A stretch of 64,000 bases of DNA, from NCBI RefSeq assembly GCF_029960785.1, contig NZ_JASBQE010000049.1, positions 1-64,000 of the forward strand, given 5' to 3'. A program made the translations under genes and the position numbers. Origin of the DNA: Polyangium sp. 15x6 (GTDB lineage Bacteria > Myxococcota_A > Polyangia > Polyangiales > Polyangiaceae). The notes under the pieces are model-generated. The model did no database searches. It had not been told where the DNA came from and was given only the letters and a program-made list of their open reading frames with translations. Of the stretch, positions 1 through 12,148 are shown one piece after another; the first letter of the stretch is position 1; each line of letters starts with the position of its first letter.

Positions 1-1635
1 CGCGGCCGAAGCGCTGCCCGCGGGCGCGGCCGACGCGCTCGCGGGCGGAGCGGCCAGGGCGCTGTCCGACGGCGCCGGCGCCGTCTCCGCGGTGGCCGGC
101 GTCGGCGCAGCCTTCACCGTCTCCGTGGGCGTGGGCGTCGGCGTCACGGCGCCGCCCGTGTTTCCGGGCTGCGTCCCGCCGGGCAAGCCGCCGATCCAGC
201 CCTTCTGCATCGCGACGAACGCACCCGCGCCGATGAGCAAGAGCGCCGCGGCGACGAGCAGCCACCCGGGCAAACCCTTCTTCGGCTCCGGCTCCGGCTT
301 CGTCTCTTCCGGCTCCTTCGCCACGACGACCGGCTTCTTCTCCACCGGCGGCTTGGTCACGGCGACGGGCTTCTTCTCGACCTCGGGCTTCTTCGTCGGC
401 AGCGGCGGCTTCGCGGCCGGCTTCTTTTCCGGCTCCGGCTTCGGCTCGAGCTCCGCGGCGCCGAGCTCGATCGAGGCCTCCTCGGTCTCGACCTCGGGCT
501 TCTTGGCCGGCGCGGGCTTCTTCTCGGACTCGGGCTTCTTCTCGGGCGCGGCGGCCTCGATCTCGACGACGGCCTCGGGCTCGGGCTTCCTGACCGAAGC
601 GGGCTTCTTCTCGGACTCGGGCTCCTTCTCGGGCGCGGCAGCCTCGACCTCGACGACGGCCTCGAGCTCGGGCTTCTTCTCGGGCTCGGGCTTCGCTTCG
701 AGGACGGGCTCCGGCTCCTTCTCGGGCTCGGGCTTCTTTTCCGGCTCGGGCGGCCTCACGAGCGCTGCGACGAGCGCGGCGCTCGGCTTCGACGTCGAGG
801 CGGGCTCGAACAGCTTCGTCGGCTCGGCGTCGTCGCCGTCGCCGTCCTCCTCGATCGCCGAGGGCAAACCGGTGCTCGTCGTCTCCGGCTTCTTCGCAGC
901 GTCGGTCCCGATGAGGGCCTCGATCTGCTCCGGCGCGAGCGCGAGCGGCGCGGTGATCGCGTCGGTGTCCTGGAGCGGCGGGGGACGGGAGTCGCCGACC
1001 TCTTCGCCGTCGCCGACACCGGGCAGCGTCCTCTTTAGCTCGTCGACCGGCTTCGCGGCCGGCTTCGTGGCGATGGGCGTCGCGGCCGGCGTCGTGAGCT
1101 TCGGCATCGCGGCCCCGAGTCCGGTCTTGGCGGCGGGCGTCGCGGCAGGCGTCGTCGCGGCCGGCTTCGCGCCCGTGGTGACGGGCGTGAGCGGCTTCGG
1201 GCCGGGGATGGCCGCGGGTTTCGTGGCGGCCGGCGCGACGGCGGCAGGCTTGGCGGCCGTGGTGACGGGCGTGAGCGGCTTCGGACCCGGCACAGCGGGA
1301 GGCTTGGCAGCCGTGGTGACGGGCGCGGGTTTGGCCGGGGGCGTCCTCGGCGTGCCCTCCTTGAGGCCGGGCAGCGGAGATGCGATGGCCACGGCCTTCG
1401 CGGGCGCTTCCTTCGCGGGCGCCTCGTCCCAGAGGTCTTCGCTGATGTCGGGCTTCTTCGTGACGATCGGCGTCGCGGCCTCGGCGAGCGTGGGGATCGG
1501 GGCGCCGACCACGTCGTCCCCCGGCTTCACCGCGAGCGCGCCGATCCCGGCACGCTCGGGCCGGGGCAACGCGGCGTTCTTCTGGACCTTGTCGAGGAGC
1601 GCTTCCAGCGCCGCGATTCGTTGTTCGACGTTCAC
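1..1635 (-). CDS. Pro/Glu/Lys-rich single-pass membrane protein (3' end off window)
   Basis: Reading frame open from GTG at 1635 to the window edge, 545 residues without a stop. The N-terminus is a short charged helix (MNVEQRIAALEALL), followed by a long Pro/Ala/Thr-rich stretch with a repeated GPKPLTPVTT block and then many KPEPEKKP-type repeats. One transmembrane helix lies at about residues 454-476 (GWLLVAAALLLIGAGAFVAM), followed by a Pro/Thr/Ala-rich, presumably periplasmic, tail. No catalytic domain is visible. The plan of a charged extended cytoplasmic region, one TM helix and an extended tail recalls TonB-like or FHA/kinase-associated spacer proteins, but no family is assigned. The plus-strand ORF over the same bases encodes only Gly/Phe/Ser repeats and is the antisense shadow. 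The start is tentative: GAGG lies almost against the GTG. Confidence 0.72.
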   Translation of the reverse strand, partial: MNVEQRIAALEALLDKVQKNAALPRPERAGIGALAVKPGDDVVGAPIPTLAEAATPIVTKKPDISEDLWDEAPAKEAPAKAVAIASPLPGLKEGTPRTPPAKPAPVTTAAKPPAVPGPKPLTPVTTAAKPAAVAPAATKPAAIPGPKPLTPVTTGAKPAATTPAATPAAKTGLGAAMPKLTTPAATPIATKPAAKPVDELKRTLPGVGDGEEVGDSRPPPLQDTDAITAPLALAPEQIEALIGTDAAKKPETTSTGLPSAIEEDGDGDDAEPTKLFEPASTSKPSAALVAALVRPPEPEKKPEPEKEPEPVLEAKPEPEKKPELEAVVEVEAAAPEKEPESEKKPASVRKPEPEAVVEIEAAAPEKKPESEKKPAPAKKPEVETEEASIELGAAELEPKPEPEKKPAAKPPLPTKKPEVEKKPVAVTKPPVEKKPVVVAKEPEETKPEPEPKKGLPGWLLVAAALLLIGAGAFVAMQKGWIGGLPGGTQPGNTGGAVTPTPTPTETVKAAPTPATAETAPAPSDSALAAPPASASAAPAGSASAA

Positions 1636-1705
1636 GCCTCGGGAGGATACCCAATCGCGCGGCTCCTGACGAGGATCCGACGGGATGCGCAAGAAACTTG
1701 CGTTT

Positions 1706-2010
1706 CGGGGGGCGTCGCGCCGGGGTTTCACCCCGGACCCCGACCAGGGGTTGTCCACCCCTGGACCCGGACCAGGGCAAGCCCTGGACGTGGGGCGACA
1801 GCGCGCGATGCGCGCTGTCGACAGGGAGAACGTCCCCAGCACGTGGGGCAGCGTTGCTGTCTTGGCTGGCGAGGAGGATCGTGGTCTTGCCACGGGCCCG
1901 TCGGAAAAACCGCGCATCGCGCGGTTTTTTCGCTTTCGGTCCAGGCCGTGCCTGGTCCGGGGTGCAGGGGGCGGACAGCCTCCTGCTGGGGTGCGGGGCA
2001 ACGCCCCGCG
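1706..2010. repeat. Composite multi-hairpin intergenic repeat, copy A
   Basis: This fills the 375-bp gap between the partial membrane protein gene and rpsD. Between 1720 and 2009 (290 bp) lie successive short palindromes: CCGGGG/CCCCGG (1720-1736), CCAGGGG/CCCCTGG, CCAGGGC/GCCCTGG and GACAGCGCGC/GCGCGCTGTC. A central unit TGCTGTCTTGGCTG (1855-1868) follows. The hairpin types then recur in mirror order: AAAACCGCGC/GCGCGGTTTT, CCAGGC/GCCTGG, and GCGGGG/CCCCGC ending at 2009. The same order, total length and core occur at 9429-9718. The last hairpin abuts the rpsD stop and could also end rpsD transcription. Function is unknown; there is no ORF of note and no transposase. Confidence 0.8.
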
Positions 2011-2622
2011 TCAGAGACGGAGCGAATAGAACTCGACGACCCGCTGCACATCGACGGGGAACAACGCCGAGGAGGCGTCCGGCAGCGCCGTCACGGTGGC
2101 GTGGAACGCGGCCTTGTCGACGTTGAGCCACGAGGCGCGCTCCATCGTCTCGTCTGCGATCGCGGCGAGCACGTGCGGGTTCTTCCAGACCCTGGGCACG
2201 AGGGAAATCTTGTGTCCCTGGTCGACCCGGAACGACGCGATGTCGACACGTCGCCCGTTCACGTGCACGAAGCCATGGCTGACGAGCTGCCGCGCAGCCG
2301 GGATCGTGCGCGCGAAACCTGCGCGGAACACGACGTTGTCGAGACGCCGCTCGAGCAGCTCGACGAGCTTGTCACCGGGGGCGCCCTGGCTTCGCCCGGC
2401 TTCGACCATGAAGCGCCGGAGCTGGACCTCGGAGACGCCGTACCCGAACCGAAGCTTCTGCTTCTCGATCAGGCGGAGCTTGTACTCGGAGAGTTTGTGC
2501 CGCGCCTGCCCGTGCTGACCTGGCGGGTACGGACGTCGATCAATCTTTTTGCGCGAAAACCCCGGAAGATCGCAGCCGAGGGCGCGCATCACGCGAACGC
2601 GGGGACCTGTGTAGCGGCTCAT
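2011..2622 (-). CDS. rpsD: 30S ribosomal protein S4 (zinc-free type)
   Basis: 203 residues, normal length for S4. It binds 16S rRNA early in assembly of the small subunit and in many bacteria also represses translation of its own operon. The N-terminal domain carries the conserved PYPPGQHG and EKQKLRFGYG stretches. The S4 RNA-binding domain spans about residues 92-145 (RLDNVVFR, ARQLVSHG, VNGRRVDIAS) and the C-terminus is the usual VVEFYS. Only one Cys is present (C17), so the four-Cys zinc site of some S4 proteins is absent. The gene stands alone rather than beside S11, S13 and RNA polymerase alpha, and a Fur/Zur-like box lies 27-54 bases upstream. This suggests a metal-regulated, possibly second, S4 copy; whether another copy exists cannot be seen here. 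Confidence 0.95.
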   Translation of the reverse strand: MSRYTGPRVRVMRALGCDLPGFSRKKIDRRPYPPGQHGQARHKLSEYKLRLIEKQKLRFGYGVSEVQLRRFMVEAGRSQGAPGDKLVELLERRLDNVVFRAGFARTIPAARQLVSHGFVHVNGRRVDIASFRVDQGHKISLVPRVWKNPHVLAAIADETMERASWLNVDKAAFHATVTALPDASSALFPVDVQRVVEFYSLRL

Positions 2623-7774: not shown

Positions 7775-9406
7775 ATGACGTCCTCTGTCTCCCGCCTTGT
7801 GTCTTCGTCCTCGCCCCGCAGAGCCCACCGCGCCTTGACGGCGTGCACGCTCGCCCTGCTGCTCGGCGCGCCCGCCGCGGCCCTCGCGCAACCCGCGCCC
7901 GCCGCCCCCGCGGCCGCGCCCGCGCCGCCTCCCCCCGCCACGGATCGTATCGCCGAGGCCCTCGCGCCCCAGCCCGGAGGCTTGACCCCGGACGAGGCGG
8001 CGCGCATCGCGCTTCGCACCCGTCCGTCGCTCCGCGTCAAGCAGGCCGAGCTCCGCGCCGCCGCCGCGCGTGTCGATCAGGCGCTCCTCAACTACCTGCC
8101 GCGTGTCACCGTCGCCGCGGGCTACACGCGCCTCTCCCGGGTCCAGAACGTGCTCGGCGCGCCGTCGACCTCCTACGTCGGCACGAATCTGGACCCGGCG
8201 AACCCGCAGGTGATCCCCGTGCAGCAAGGGCCGCTCGTGTCGCAGCCGTGCCCGCCCCCGCTCTCGGGCAACTGCGTCACGGACATCGCGGGCACGCCGA
8301 TCACCGCGGTGCAGACGCCGGCCTTTTCGTTCCCCGTCCTCCTGAACTCGTACTCGCTCACGGCGTCGATCTCGGTGCCGATCTCGGACTACGTGCTGCG
8401 CATCTCGCAGGGCTACGCGTCCGCCTCGCACGCCGAGAGCGCGAAGCGGATCGAGCTCGAGGCCGAGGGGTTGACGATCGCCGCGGACGCGAAGGTCGCG
8501 TTCTTCAACTGGGTCCGCGCCAAGGGCAGCGCCGTCGTCGCGAAGGAGGCCGTGGCGCAGGCCGAGGCGCATCTCAAGGACGCGAACCTCACGTTCCAGG
8601 CGGGGCTCATCTCGAAGGCCGACGTGCTGCGCCTCGAAGCGCAGGTCGCGTCTGCGCAGCAGGTGCAGGCCGACGCGGACGCGCTCGCGGCGCTCGCCGA
8701 GGAGCAGATCCGCGTCTCGCTCATGCTCCCGGCCGGCAAGCCGCTTACGATCGGCGTGGACGTGCTGCATGCGTCGGCGGAGCCGAGCACGGTGCAGCTC
8801 ACGGCGCTGCAGGACGAGGCGCTCGCGCGGCGGCTGGAGATCCGCGCGCTCGACGAGACGGAGCACTCGCTGAAGAAGCAAGTCTCGCTGACACGCGCGG
8901 GTTACTTCCCGCGCATCGACGGGTTCGCCGAGGGGCAGTACCAGAACCCGAACCAGCGCGTCTTCCCGCAGACCGACGAGTTCCGGTTCACGTGGAACGC
9001 GGGCGTGCGGCTCTCCTGGACGATCAACGACACGCTCACGACGATCCCCGCCGTGACCGAGGCGCAGTCGCGCGTGGAGCAGATCGCCGCGCAGAAGGAG
9101 CAGCTGCTCCAGGGGCTCAAGGTCGAGGTCGCGTCGGCGTACGCGGAGCTCAAGCGCGCCGAGGCAAACATCGACGCGGCCGATCGGGGGCTCGCTGCGG
9201 CAGAGGAAGGGGTGCGTGTGCAGAACGAGCTCTTCCGTGCGGGTCGTGCGACGGGCGTGGCGCTCGTCGACGCCGAGGCCGAGCTGACGCGCGCGCGCTT
9301 GCGGCGCGTGGACGCGCGCGTCGGGATCCTCGTGGCCCGCACGCGGCTCGAACATGCGACGGGCCGCGACGTGGAAAAAGCTTCCAACGCGCAGAAGAAC
9401 CCCTGA
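7775..9406 (+). CDS. TolC-family outer membrane efflux protein
   Basis: 543 residues. The signal peptide ends near ALAQ (residue 38) and a Pro/Ala-rich linker follows. Two outer-membrane-efflux repeats then show the usual pattern: long helices with EAARIALRTRPSLRVKQAELRAA at the start, and QLLQGLKVEVASAYAELKRAEANIDAADRGL with VQNELFRAGRATGVALVDAEAELTRARL in the second half. It should trimerise as an outer-membrane channel and helical periplasmic tunnel for tripartite export. No membrane-fusion protein or inner-membrane pump is adjacent, so its partners lie elsewhere. An interrupted palindrome TGACC-GGCG-GGTCA (7759-7772) sits just before the ATG and could be an operator. Composite repeat B lies downstream. 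Confidence 0.92.
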   Translation: MTSSVSRLVSSSSPRRAHRALTACTLALLLGAPAAALAQPAPAAPAAAPAPPPPATDRIAEALAPQPGGLTPDEAARIALRTRPSLRVKQAELRAAAARVDQALLNYLPRVTVAAGYTRLSRVQNVLGAPSTSYVGTNLDPANPQVIPVQQGPLVSQPCPPPLSGNCVTDIAGTPITAVQTPAFSFPVLLNSYSLTASISVPISDYVLRISQGYASASHAESAKRIELEAEGLTIAADAKVAFFNWVRAKGSAVVAKEAVAQAEAHLKDANLTFQAGLISKADVLRLEAQVASAQQVQADADALAALAEEQIRVSLMLPAGKPLTIGVDVLHASAEPSTVQLTALQDEALARRLEIRALDETEHSLKKQVSLTRAGYFPRIDGFAEGQYQNPNQRVFPQTDEFRFTWNAGVRLSWTINDTLTTIPAVTEAQSRVEQIAAQKEQLLQGLKVEVASAYAELKRAEANIDAADRGLAAAEEGVRVQNELFRAGRATGVALVDAEAELTRARLRRVDARVGILVARTRLEHATGRDVEKASNAQKNP

Positions 9407-9428: not shown

Positions 9429-9718
9429 CCGGGGTTTCACCCCGGGCCCGACCAGGGGCTGTTCGCCCCTGGACCCGAACCAGGGCGCAGCCCTGGACCT
9501 CAGGGGGAAGAACTGCGCGAAGCGCAGTTCTTCCCACAGGCCGGTAGGATCGCCTTGCCGGTTGAAACGTCAGCGCTGCTGTCTTGGCTGCCGCTCTTGA
9601 ACCCCGGCTCGTTCGATGAACTGCGCATCGCGCAGTTCATCGACCCCGAGTCCAGCGCTTGCGCTGGTCCGGGTCCAGGGGTGGACAACCCCTGGTCGGG
9701 TCCGGGGTGAAACCCCGG
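9429..9718. repeat. Composite multi-hairpin intergenic repeat, copy B
   Basis: Exactly 290 bp, like copy A. Left arm: CCGGGG/CCCCGG (9429-9445), CCAGGGG/CCCCTGG, CCAGGGC/GCCCTGG and GAACTGCGC/GCGCAGTTC. The core TGCTGTCTTGGCTG is at 9577-9590. The right arm runs in mirror order: GAACTGCGC/GCGCAGTTC, CCAGCGC/GCGCTGG, CCAGGGG/CCCCTGG and CCGGGG/CCCCGG (9702-9718). The two arms are thus largely inverted copies of each other, each made of small hairpins. It lies between a TolC-family gene and the pyrophosphatase gene. Confidence 0.85.
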
Positions 9719-9808
9719 CGCTACGCCACCACCCGACACGCGACGGGCTTGCCCTGACACGCGCATCGCGGTAGTGGACCTCCCGCGGCTCGCCTTCCCA
9801 GCGGGATG

Positions 9809-9828
9809 GGGTTCGTGTCGACGAACCC
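9809..9828 (+). promoter_or_regulatory. Leader hairpin before the pyrophosphatase gene
   Basis: GGGTTCGT-GTCG-ACGAACCC, a perfect 8-bp stem with a 4-base loop, 28 bases before the chosen ATG at 9857. It is probably in the mRNA leader. No run of T follows. Its presence argues for the 9857 start over the in-frame ATG at 9806. Confidence 0.4.
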
Positions 9829-9856
9829 ACGGGCGAATGGCCGCGATGACCTCCTC

Positions 9857-12148
9857 ATGACCGAGCTCGCGCTCATCCTCGGCATCAGCCTGCTCGGCAT
9901 CGGGTTCGCGGGCTACCTCGCGCGCTGGGTGCTCGGTTGCCCCACGGGGGAGGGGGACATGCCGCGCGTCGCGGCTCGGATTCGCGCGGCTGCCGTGTTC
10001 TTCACGAAGCGGCTGCGGGGCACCATCCTCGCTGTCTCGGCCGTCCCTGGCGGCGGCATCTTCCTCGCGTATGGCCTTGCTCGGCAGAAGCCCGAGGCCC
10101 AGGCGTTTCCGCCGCTCGAGCTCGGGGCTTGGCTCACGCTCTCCTTTGCCCTCGGCGTCGGCTCGGCCGTCGCGGCTGCGCAGGTCGCTGCCTGGACGGC
10201 CGCGCGCGCGAACGTGCGCGCGGCCAGCGGCGCCCGCCGTTCGCTCGACCATGCGCTGCAGATCGCCATTCGCGGCGGCGCTGTCTCGGGACTCTTTTCC
10301 GTCTCGCTCGGGCTCATCGGGCTCGTTGGCCTCTTCGCCATCGTCTTCGCGACCAAGGGCGGCTTCTCGGCCGAGCCCGGCGCTGCGCTGAAGCTCGCTC
10401 CCTCGATCCCGCTCGTCATCGCTGGTTATGCGCTCGGCGGCGCGTTCGCCGCGCTCATTGCCGAGCTCGGCGGCGGCGCCTTCGCCAAGAGCGCGGACAT
10501 GGGCGCCGATCTTGCTGGCAAGGAGCTCGGATTGCCCGAGGACGATGCCCGCAACCCGGCCACGATCGCGGATCTCGCGGGCGACTGCGCGGGCGAGGGC
10601 GCGAGCAAGGCCGCGTCCGCGTTCGCGTCCACCGTGGCGGAGAACCTCGGCGCGATGCTGATCGCGGCCGCCGTCTTTCGCGGCAACGAGGGCATCCCGA
10701 GCGTCCTCTCGATCATGCTCTTCCCCGTGGTCACGCGCGCCTTCGGCGTCCTCGCCGCGATGTTCGGGGTGATGGTCGTGCGCACGGACGACCGCGAAGA
10801 CCCGATGAACGCGCTCGCCCGGGGCCTCTTCGTCACGGCGCTGCTCGGCGCGGTGGGCACGGCGGGCGCGGCGAAGTGGCTGCTCGGCAAGCACTGGCTC
10901 CCGCTCTTCGGCGCGGCCGCCGTGGGCATGGCCGCCGGCATCCTCCTCCTCTTCGTGGCCCAGTACTACACGGAGAGCCGTTACCGCCCCGTCCGCGAGA
11001 TCGCCGAGGCCGCGCGCGTCGGCCCGCCGCTCGCGCTCCTCCGCGGGGCCTCGGTGGGCCTCGAGGGCGCGCTCGCTCCGCTCGTGATCCTCGGCGCCGC
11101 CGTGGCGTCGGCGCACGTGCTCGGCGCCCGCACCGGCCTCGACGGCGGCGGCGCGCTCGGCATCGCCGTGGCCACGATGGGCCTGCTCGGCACCGCGGCT
11201 TATGCGCTCGCGATGGCCGGCTTCGCGCCGATCATCGACAGCGCGGGCGGGATCGTGGAGATGACGATCGGCCGCGAGCGCCCGGATGTTCGCGGCCGGA
11301 CCGTGGTCCTCGACGCCGTCGGCAACACGGCGAAGGCTTTTACCAGGGCCCACGCGGGCGCGGCCGCGCTCCTCGCCACCTCCATGCTCGTGTCGGTCTG
11401 GCTGGACGAGGCCAAGCGGCGCCTGCCTGCGGGAAAACCGGCGGCGACGGCGGCGAACGCGCTCGCGGTGGGCCGGCCGGAGGTGTACCTCGGCGCGGCC
11501 GTCGGCATCGTCCTGGTCGTCTGGTTCGCCTCGCGGTGCATTGGCGGCGTATCGCGCGCGGCCAGGCGCGTGCTCGACGAGGCGCGCCGGCAGATCAACG
11601 CGCCCTCGTCGCTCGGGACGAGCACGGCCTGGACCCCGCCGCATCCGCGGGCCTCGCGGTCGAGCCAGTCCGCGGCGCCCGCCGCGCGGGGCGGGCTCGC
11701 GGCGCCCGACCTGGACGCGTGCGTGGAGCTCGGCAGCCGCGCCGCGCTCGGCCATGCGATCACGCCGGCCCTGGTCGCCGCCTCGGTGCCGATCGCGGTG
11801 GGACTGGGCTTGCGCTTCGCCGGAACGGAAGATAATCCTCTAGCCGTTGCCGACGCGGTCGCTGCCTTGATCCTGGCCGCGACGATCGCAGGCGTCCTGG
11901 GCGCGCTCCTGCTCGGCAATGCGGGGGGCGCTTGGGACAACGCGAAGAAGTACATCGTGACCGGGGCGCACGGCGGGCGGTACCTCGTCGACGAGACCGG
12001 CGCGCGGGTCGACAACCCGACGTACCTCGCGGCGGCCTCGGGTGACACGGTCGGCGATCCGCTGAAGGACGCGGCCGGGCCCGCGATCCACGTGCTCGTG
12101 AAAATGCTTCCCGTGGTCACGCTCGTCTTTTTGCCGTTCTTCGTCTAG
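9857..12148 (+). CDS. hppA: Membrane-bound proton-translocating pyrophosphatase, divergent
   Basis: 763 residues with many transmembrane helices. The family couples pyrophosphate hydrolysis to proton (or sodium) export across the inner membrane. Motifs seen: GADLAGKE (about residue 216), EDDARNPATIAD (about 229), DSAGGIVEM, LDAVGNTAKA (about 489) and, near the end, GGAWDNAKKYI and GDTVGDPLKD (about 729). The Lys in GNTAKA is the mark of the K+-independent subfamily. Oddly, the loop after NPATIAD reads LAGDCAGEGASKA, whereas typical enzymes have NVGDNVGDCAG with Mg-binding Asp residues; about four residues are missing. Activity is therefore not certain. The start at 9857 is chosen because the hydrophobic first helix begins there, although no good ribosome site is seen. 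Confidence 0.88.
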   Translation: MTELALILGISLLGIGFAGYLARWVLGCPTGEGDMPRVAARIRAAAVFFTKRLRGTILAVSAVPGGGIFLAYGLARQKPEAQAFPPLELGAWLTLSFALGVGSAVAAAQVAAWTAARANVRAASGARRSLDHALQIAIRGGAVSGLFSVSLGLIGLVGLFAIVFATKGGFSAEPGAALKLAPSIPLVIAGYALGGAFAALIAELGGGAFAKSADMGADLAGKELGLPEDDARNPATIADLAGDCAGEGASKAASAFASTVAENLGAMLIAAAVFRGNEGIPSVLSIMLFPVVTRAFGVLAAMFGVMVVRTDDREDPMNALARGLFVTALLGAVGTAGAAKWLLGKHWLPLFGAAAVGMAAGILLLFVAQYYTESRYRPVREIAEAARVGPPLALLRGASVGLEGALAPLVILGAAVASAHVLGARTGLDGGGALGIAVATMGLLGTAAYALAMAGFAPIIDSAGGIVEMTIGRERPDVRGRTVVLDAVGNTAKAFTRAHAGAAALLATSMLVSVWLDEAKRRLPAGKPAATAANALAVGRPEVYLGAAVGIVLVVWFASRCIGGVSRAARRVLDEARRQINAPSSLGTSTAWTPPHPRASRSSQSAAPAARGGLAAPDLDACVELGSRAALGHAITPALVAASVPIAVGLGLRFAGTEDNPLAVADAVAALILAATIAGVLGALLLGNAGGAWDNAKKYIVTGAHGGRYLVDETGARVDNPTYLAAASGDTVGDPLKDAAGPAIHVLVKMLPVVTLVFLPFFV

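Follow-up and report, generated by a model that had tools for sequence, protein, structure and literature searches.

The window analyzed here is a stretch of 64,000 nucleotides at the start of contig NZ_JASBQE010000049.1 of Polyangium sp. 15x6, and it carries two copies of a palindrome array. Copies A and B are each 290 bp long, with two four-hairpin arms mirrored about a core. Copy A lies next to rpsD, and only 1 bp separates the rpsD stop codon from the final hairpin of copy A, in agreement with a preliminary description of this DNA in which the last hairpin abutted the stop. The gene called beyond the other side of copy A is also encoded on the minus strand, its 5' end pointing toward copy A. 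Copy B begins 22 bp after the stop codon of an efflux protein gene and is followed by an H+ pyrophosphatase gene. The features are listed below by position; the elements and most of their parts were assigned no strand, and a strand is given where there is one.

1..1635, minus strand: called gene beyond the other side of copy A, no Pfam match
1720..2009: entire copy A, both outer hairpins included
1720..1736: copy A left arm h1, an X-type hairpin, CCGGGGTTTCACCCCGG
1744..1764: copy A left arm h2
1772..1787: copy A left arm h3
1796..1820: copy A left arm h4, GACAGCGCGC type with a perfect stem of 11 bp
1848..1874, plus strand: conserved motif in the core of copy A, with 4 mismatches relative to GCAGCGCTGCTGTCTCGGCTGGCAACG
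1880..1894: copy A additional core hairpin, CGTGGTCTTGCCACG
1902..1932: copy A right arm h4, 14-nt arms, 93% complementary
1941..1955: copy A right arm h3
1964..1986: copy A right arm h2
1993..2009: copy A right arm h1, GCGGGGC.., type GC (= Y)
2011..2622, minus strand: rpsD, ribosomal protein S4 gene (Pfam Ribosomal_S4), stop codon abutting copy A
7775..9406, plus strand: gene preceding copy B, for a TolC-type outer membrane efflux protein (Pfam OEP)
9429..9718: copy B, built on the 290-bp plan of copy A
9452..9472: copy B left arm h2
9480..9496: copy B left arm h3
9505..9535: copy B left arm h4
9614..9642: copy B right arm h4
9652..9667: copy B right arm h3
9675..9695: copy B right arm h2
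9702..9718: copy B right arm h1
9806..12148, plus strand: H+ pyrophosphatase gene (Pfam H_PPase), downstream of copy B

A low-complexity ORF of 525 amino acids on the plus strand of the window (92-1669) probably just shadows the minus-strand gene called at 1-1635.

Direct reading of the sequence confirmed the mirrored 290-bp multi-hairpin plan that the preliminary description had given for copy A, and copies A (1720-2009) and B (9429-9718) are indeed equal in length. Its count of eight hairpins stands as four per arm but is only a minimum, since the core of copy A contains the additional CGTGGTCTTGCCACG hairpin (1880-1894). In the right arm of copy A, the h4 stem includes an A-run and a T-run, and in copy B, h1 is of the X type at both ends (9429-9445 and 9702-9718). 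Folded as RNA, copy A reached -193.9 kcal/mol, compared with -144.5 (sd 5.25) for dinucleotide shuffles, none of which was as good (0 of 200; z -9.4). An arm covariance model run on the window found four strong arms, two in each copy, and five weaker matches (E 1.6e-5 to 0.043) that all overlapped copies A or B. As had been proposed, no gene of its own was seen in the element, which is a dispersed repeat.

We searched the whole assembly of Polyangium sp. 15x6 (13.38 Mb, 275 contigs; hereafter the own genome) with copy A. The best 40 of 448 candidate places were scored, and all of them matched, mostly near full length, at 73-94% identity excluding copy A itself. The outer hairpin CCGGGGTTTCACCCCGG had 150 exact occurrences in this genome (79 forward and 71 reverse), compared with 0 for the control, which disposes of the earlier proviso that only two copies might exist. 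The arm covariance model detected the family in all six Polyangium genomes searched, with match counts per genome that are minimum values (at least), as they cover the best-scoring places only. Outside Polyangium, within the order Polyangiales, the same model found it in 0 of 33 genomes and, with stricter filters, in 0 of 138 (the two sets overlap). A DNA pattern matched at least 74 stretches in named genomes; among the matches listed, all were from Polyangium (order Polyangiales), and the species were P. fumosum, sp. 6x1, and sp. y55x31. Copy A had no match in plasmid and phage collections at blastn sensitivity, and a plasmid or phage origin was rejected at that level. Among the matches listed from the open-licence PMC literature, none dealt with repeats of this kind in Polyangium or in any other myxobacterium. 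Among the genomes searched, the palindrome-array family was confined to Polyangium, a genus of soil bacteria. Separately, contigs C18, C36, C41, C57, C60, and C73 of the own genome begin inside or beside a copy, as do C115, C144, C173, C184, C201, and C254. Because so many contigs begin in this way, the repeat probably breaks short-read Polyangium assemblies.

Thirty arms from the own genome could be aligned as tandem hairpins h1-h4 with conserved linkers; an arm is about 105 bp long and has four different hairpins in a fixed order. In a full element, two such arms are set opposite each other about a core that is conserved and in part mirrored; the short form is a single arm. We classified 169 distinct elements from the window and loci L001-L166 (57 from the own genome, 89 from named species, and 23 from other genomes) as 104 full elements, 64 single arms, and 1 other, and the 104 were inverted pairs. 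The 14-mer core named in the preliminary description is exact in copies A and B only. Of 103 full-element cores, 101 had a 27-nt motif covering this 14-mer with at most 9 mismatches, and the other two had it with 13; shuffled cores (one shuffle each) gave 11 to 16 mismatches. We read elements of about 340 bp as having two half-cores and those of about 290 bp as having one.

Arms of a pair tended to be unlike. Among elements picked without the X pattern, none of 24 typed pairs (of 26) had the same h1 type, where 5.8 would be expected; where the pattern had been used for picking, X-X pairs made up 6 of the 97 typed ones, copy B included. Single arms had their own h4 version in 28 of 58 cases, compared with 4 of 202 arms of full elements. 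At locus L121 (2092-2594), degenerate tandem-like repeats (GACGCGCGCACGCGACC-like) interrupt the core between two facing arms. Loci L128, L071, and L108 hold composite copies with a second h3-h4 and an extra GGGGCGGACAGCTTAAAAA-like block (diverged in L071), which is a further mosaic module. We also asked whether CTGA-GAGGGTG marks a conserved outer end and a target; it was rejected as a defining end, as only 31 of 306 outer flanks had it at 2 or fewer mismatches.

The preliminary description had claimed that the stems keep pairing while sequences differ between copies A and B, and arms of other species bear out such covariation. With RNAalifold, 12 of the 33 pairs in own-genome arms had changed on both sides. 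In a set of 134 arms (130 distinct) taken from 74 named loci of other species, the covariation score was 0.313, compared with 0.096 in shuffles (none of 500 reached it) and at most 0.050 in slid versions; 98.6% of cells were paired (87.1 shuffled), 462 cells had a two-sided change (117 shuffled), and 15 pairs had changed on both sides (12.5 shuffled), figures that lean toward structure because the alignment was model-fitted and the loci were pattern-picked, which fixes part of one arm each. Further pair types showed no excess in this set (31, compared with 31.2 in shuffles). Of the h1, h2, and h4 cells, 3160 of 3182 (99.3%) were Watson-Crick, with 9 G-U, 4 A-C, and 9 other. As G-U and A-C pairs are nearly absent, both DNA strands keep pairing.

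What the preliminary description had missed is that the elements lie directly behind stop codons, chiefly between convergent genes. Placement was scored at loci chosen by the X-arm pattern or by similarity to copy A or B, with the surrounding genes called by a codon-usage script rather than taken from annotation. Called neighbors on both sides were available for 133 of the 169 elements, and 36 were dropped where the locus end was near or a neighbor was uncalled. None of the 133 elements was inside a called gene. The 95 full elements divided into 57 convergent, 37 tandem, and 1 divergent gap, and the 38 single-arm or other elements into 26 convergent, 12 tandem, and 0 divergent. Intergenic DNA free of elements, taken from the window and the 74 named loci, was 6.3% convergent, 53.7% tandem, and 40% divergent, from which full elements differed with binomial p values of 2e-43 (convergent) and 6e-20 (divergent). 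The median distance was 16 bp from stop codon to arm (n=215) and 113 bp from start codon to arm (n=51). Of the 37 full elements lying in tandem gaps, 35 were closer to the upstream stop. Single arms in tandem gaps showed no polarity toward the gene (7 and 5 in the two orientations), and such a polarity was dropped as a candidate.

A sample of genome G005 chosen without reference to the element sequence (40 stretches of 20 kb, 800 kb in all) contained 11 elements, 4 full and 7 single arms. The 9 gaps with an element were 4 convergent, 4 tandem, and 1 divergent, so that the convergent bias has the same direction here but is weaker than in the pattern-picked set, on small numbers. Among element-free convergent slots of at least 20 bp in this sample, 17 of 54 had a perfect stem of at least 9 bp (0 of 54 shuffled), compared with 11 of 238 tandem slots (1 shuffled) and 2 of 101 divergent slots (1 shuffled). 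Since element-free slots hold such simple hairpins, hairpins at convergent gene ends are a wider habit here, of which the element is one version. By eye, a T-run followed only one of the convergent-gap hairpins in these stretches (L255-L294), that of L284, and an 11-mer, CCCCTCTCCCG, was common to three; these simple hairpins form another class at gene ends, simpler than the arrays. On the near-complete 13.24-Mb contig G005:C1, dnaA lies at 11.65 Mb; 27 of the 35 listed top-scoring sites were beyond a quarter circle from it, and none was within 1.6 Mb.

In each direction, just 2 of the 274 arms had at least 5 T among the 8 bases that follow one of their hairpins, TTTT within the 3' half of h4 occurred in 30 of 260, and a terminator scan of copy A was blank. 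An intrinsic terminator with a U-tract was thereby ruled out for nearly all arms. The suggestion in the preliminary description that the element is a source of structured RNA did not gain support: a scan for sigma-70-type promoters, which covers that promoter type alone, had no match in copy A, and Rfam had 0 matches over the window at the gathering score (best sub-threshold E 0.017), so that a known RNA family was rejected at that score.

We then compared orthologous sites. The flanks of 18 of the 22 eligible own-genome sites, which are filled by construction, were looked up in five relatives (G001-G005). Two of 90 cases, both at site 7, were not found, and the other 88 comprised 23 with a full element, 14 with one arm, and 51 with none. 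Site 9 was filled in all six genomes, and sites 2, 5, and 6 had the element in the own genome only. Site 17 had no arm in the five relatives, in two of which a single flank could be resolved. Sites 10, 14, and 16 were filled in the own genome and G004 only (at site 14, one relative had a single flank), as was site 7 among the three relatives found. The slot of copy B was filled in four of five relatives, two of these split over contigs, and in G001 only a few bases separate the gene end from the shared downstream sequence. Copy A lies behind rpsD in the own genome alone, among three genomes in which the rpsD locus was seen: in G003 and G005, the two relatives recovered, rpsD has another neighbor and no element. 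A reading of copy A as a possible rearrangement breakpoint was considered and not adopted. Where sites were filled, the arm types often differed across species, and sometimes orientation or number as well (cases are site 11 in G004 and, in both G002 and G003, site 12); some slots held single arms or had reversed orientation. Palindrome-array elements are gained and lost rapidly between Polyangium species, and the single-species sites would represent gains and not losses.

The 51 element-free slots comprised 23 under 20 bp, 24 of 20-199 bp, and 4 other. Eleven convergent ones (sites 0, 3, 5, 7, and 12) carried an unrelated simple hairpin, with z from -5.5 to -1.2 against base-shuffled controls and two weak cases at site 0; at site 5, it was present in four species. 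The 24 slots of 20-199 bp include 13 others (sites 6, 14, 15, and 17; several are not convergent, and some at 14 and 15 may be mis-called), in which no such hairpin was found. With 23 of 51 slots under 20 bp and 13 of 24 hairpin-free, many such gene pairs live without a hairpin.

These empty orthologous sites in related species agree with the earlier proposal of a non-autonomous mobile element, but neither a consistent target-site duplication nor a partner transposase accompanied them. Among the empty sites written out, one had a 4-bp case: site 14 has TCAG on both sides of the element and a single TCAG in G003 and G005, and the rest were ragged or replaced. The repeat at site 14 may be chance, because the stop codons there read CTGA/TCAG. 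Y1_Tnp matches occurred at 4 loci in three of the six genomes (own, G001, and G003), and the DNA fetched for these loci had no arm at any of them; G002, G004, and G005 had no match, though all three carry the element. These results do not support RAYT-driven spread. Reading by eye, we noticed no autonomous copy at the long or single-arm loci L121, L034, L071, and L128.

On balance, we lean toward the view that these are Polyangium-specific, REP/BIME-like mosaic palindrome arrays, most likely acting as a two-way structured 3' end. When either neighbor is transcribed into the element, its mRNA would reach strong hairpins within a few dozen bases, and these may stop RNA polymerase and/or block 3'-5' exonucleases as well as readthrough into the opposite gene. 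The stop-proximal placement, the symmetry, the covarying stems, and the simple hairpins in the relatives' slots fit this role, which, as read from sequence, would be termination or mRNA shielding. Since the arms are not U-tract terminators, Rho- or exonuclease-linked end formation, or REP-like stabilization, seems the likelier route. The family may have spread non-autonomously, by copying of existing arms. A broader version, which we regard as doubtful, is that the elements serve genome-wide as exchangeable gene-end cassettes: ready four-hairpin arms, almost always paired with a partner of another type about the conserved core, would be copied into slots directly after stops, displace the simple terminator hairpin already there, and be swapped arm-by-arm between species. 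The copying activity would be neither a RAYT nor a known transposase, and perhaps one that reads palindromic single strands. If this were true, gene ends would evolve through cassette exchange and not point mutation.

The turnover between species is also what a purely selfish non-autonomous repeat would produce, one found behind stops because insertion is tolerated or targeted there, with no host role. Many species have element-free orthologous sites, sites 2, 5, and 6 are occupied in the own genome only and 10, 14, and 16 only there and in G004, the TCAG of site 14 is on both sides against a single copy in G003 and G005, and such turnover seems too quick for an indispensable site. We nevertheless consider a selfish repeat possible but somewhat unlikely, as it comes with no transposase and no consistent duplication, its arm type differs between species at many slots that stay filled, and 99.3% Watson-Crick pairing over many stem sequences is hard to expect of junk unless a mutational process corrects the stems. 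Such a process would be quasi-palindrome correction through template switching in replication, which could keep stems perfect and yield covariation without selection. One-sided changes are almost absent, both stem sides change together, and further pair types are no higher than in shuffles (31 and 31.2), all as template switching predicts; it leaves unexplained, however, the gene-end placement, the conserved linkers and core, and the unlike-partner rule (0 of 24 same-type pairs, 5.8 expected), and we hold it to be quite improbable.

For the BIMEs of enterobacteria, a role as a supercoil, gyrase, or nucleoid-protein site has been proposed, and the Polyangium elements are, by analogy, candidates for a DNA-level site of this kind between convergent genes, a gyrase- or nucleoid-binding site having also been suggested in the preliminary description. 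The convergent bias, the conserved core motif, and the location of most listed G005 sites (27 of 35) in the half opposite dnaA are consistent with it, and so is the pairing kept by both DNA strands (9 G-U and 4 A-C of 3182 cells), which would also be expected if RNA from both strands were used. Supercoiling alone does not demand that tandem-gap elements hug the upstream stop, and we judge this reading unlikely. That the element encodes a structured small RNA, to which the very stable fold of copy A and the conserved core might point, appears highly improbable, given Rfam matches below threshold and none at the gathering score, no match to a sigma-70-type promoter (other types being outside the scan), the near-symmetry of the element, and slots that hold a single arm or the opposite orientation.

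Compared with known systems, the Polyangium element resembles an intrinsic terminator in placing a strong G+C-rich hairpin right after a stop codon; it differs in that nearly all arms are without a U-tract, four hairpins stand in series, and sequence conservation across loci is high. MITEs and the RUP, BOX, and ERIC/IRU repeats are non-coding, 100-350 bp long, and multi-copy, with inverted ends and species-level presence or absence. The Polyangium family shares their size range, non-coding nature, inverted ends, copy number, and species-level presence or absence, but it is built of many small palindromes rather than a single terminal inverted repeat; the empty sites written out showed no consistent target-site duplication, and we found no related transposon.

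REP and BIME repeats have long been known, and the Polyangium family, abundant, intergenic, biased toward 3' ends, and composed of unlike dimers, is most similar to these. Di Nocera et al. 2013 (PMC3733652) describe REP/BIME as high-copy intergenic palindromes in several families and in head-to-head combinations with unlike partners; most lie in gaps where the genes converge or run in one direction, and in two genomes the distance to the 3' end is mostly less than 20 bp. REP units there are 20-40 bp. Another paper (PMC12306157) describes REP structures as exoribonuclease barriers. Like REP/BIME, the Polyangium elements are high-copy and intergenic (150 exact outer hairpins, control 0; 0 of 133 in genes), form inverted mosaics of unlike units (104 of 169 inverted pairs; 0 of 24 typed pairs alike), and lie in convergent or unidirectional gaps near 3' ends, more weakly so in the G005 sample. 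The Polyangium arms are distinct in their length of about 105 bp, with four hairpins in fixed order and a conserved mirrored core. Like GTAG/CGTC REPs, X-type arms carry GTAG in 63 of 146 and CGTC in 32 of 146 cases within the 8 bases before h1, and CC/CGCTG arms carry CGTC in 11 of 30. In contrast to those REPs, the tag is two or three bases off the stem, GTAG occurs in only 1 of 30 arms of the CC/CGCTG type and in none of the 68 arms belonging to six other types, and CGTC in 4 of those 68, so that the tag is not a constant feature; nor did any of the Y1 transposase loci, in the DNA fetched, have the gene flanked by the repeat, as in RAYT-mobilized REPs. Because the constant tag and the RAYT partner are lacking, we file the family as REP/BIME-like and not as REP. 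What keeps REPs at gene ends and how RAYT-less families spread are named as open questions by Di Nocera et al. (PMC3733652). The Polyangium family is limited to a single genus among the genomes searched and has strong covariation and an unlike-partner rule; its presence differs between species, and its slots may hold an ordinary hairpin in relatives. Filled, empty, and simple-hairpin alleles of one gene pair can therefore be compared directly, which would make the function of REP-like repeats testable in a handful of strains.
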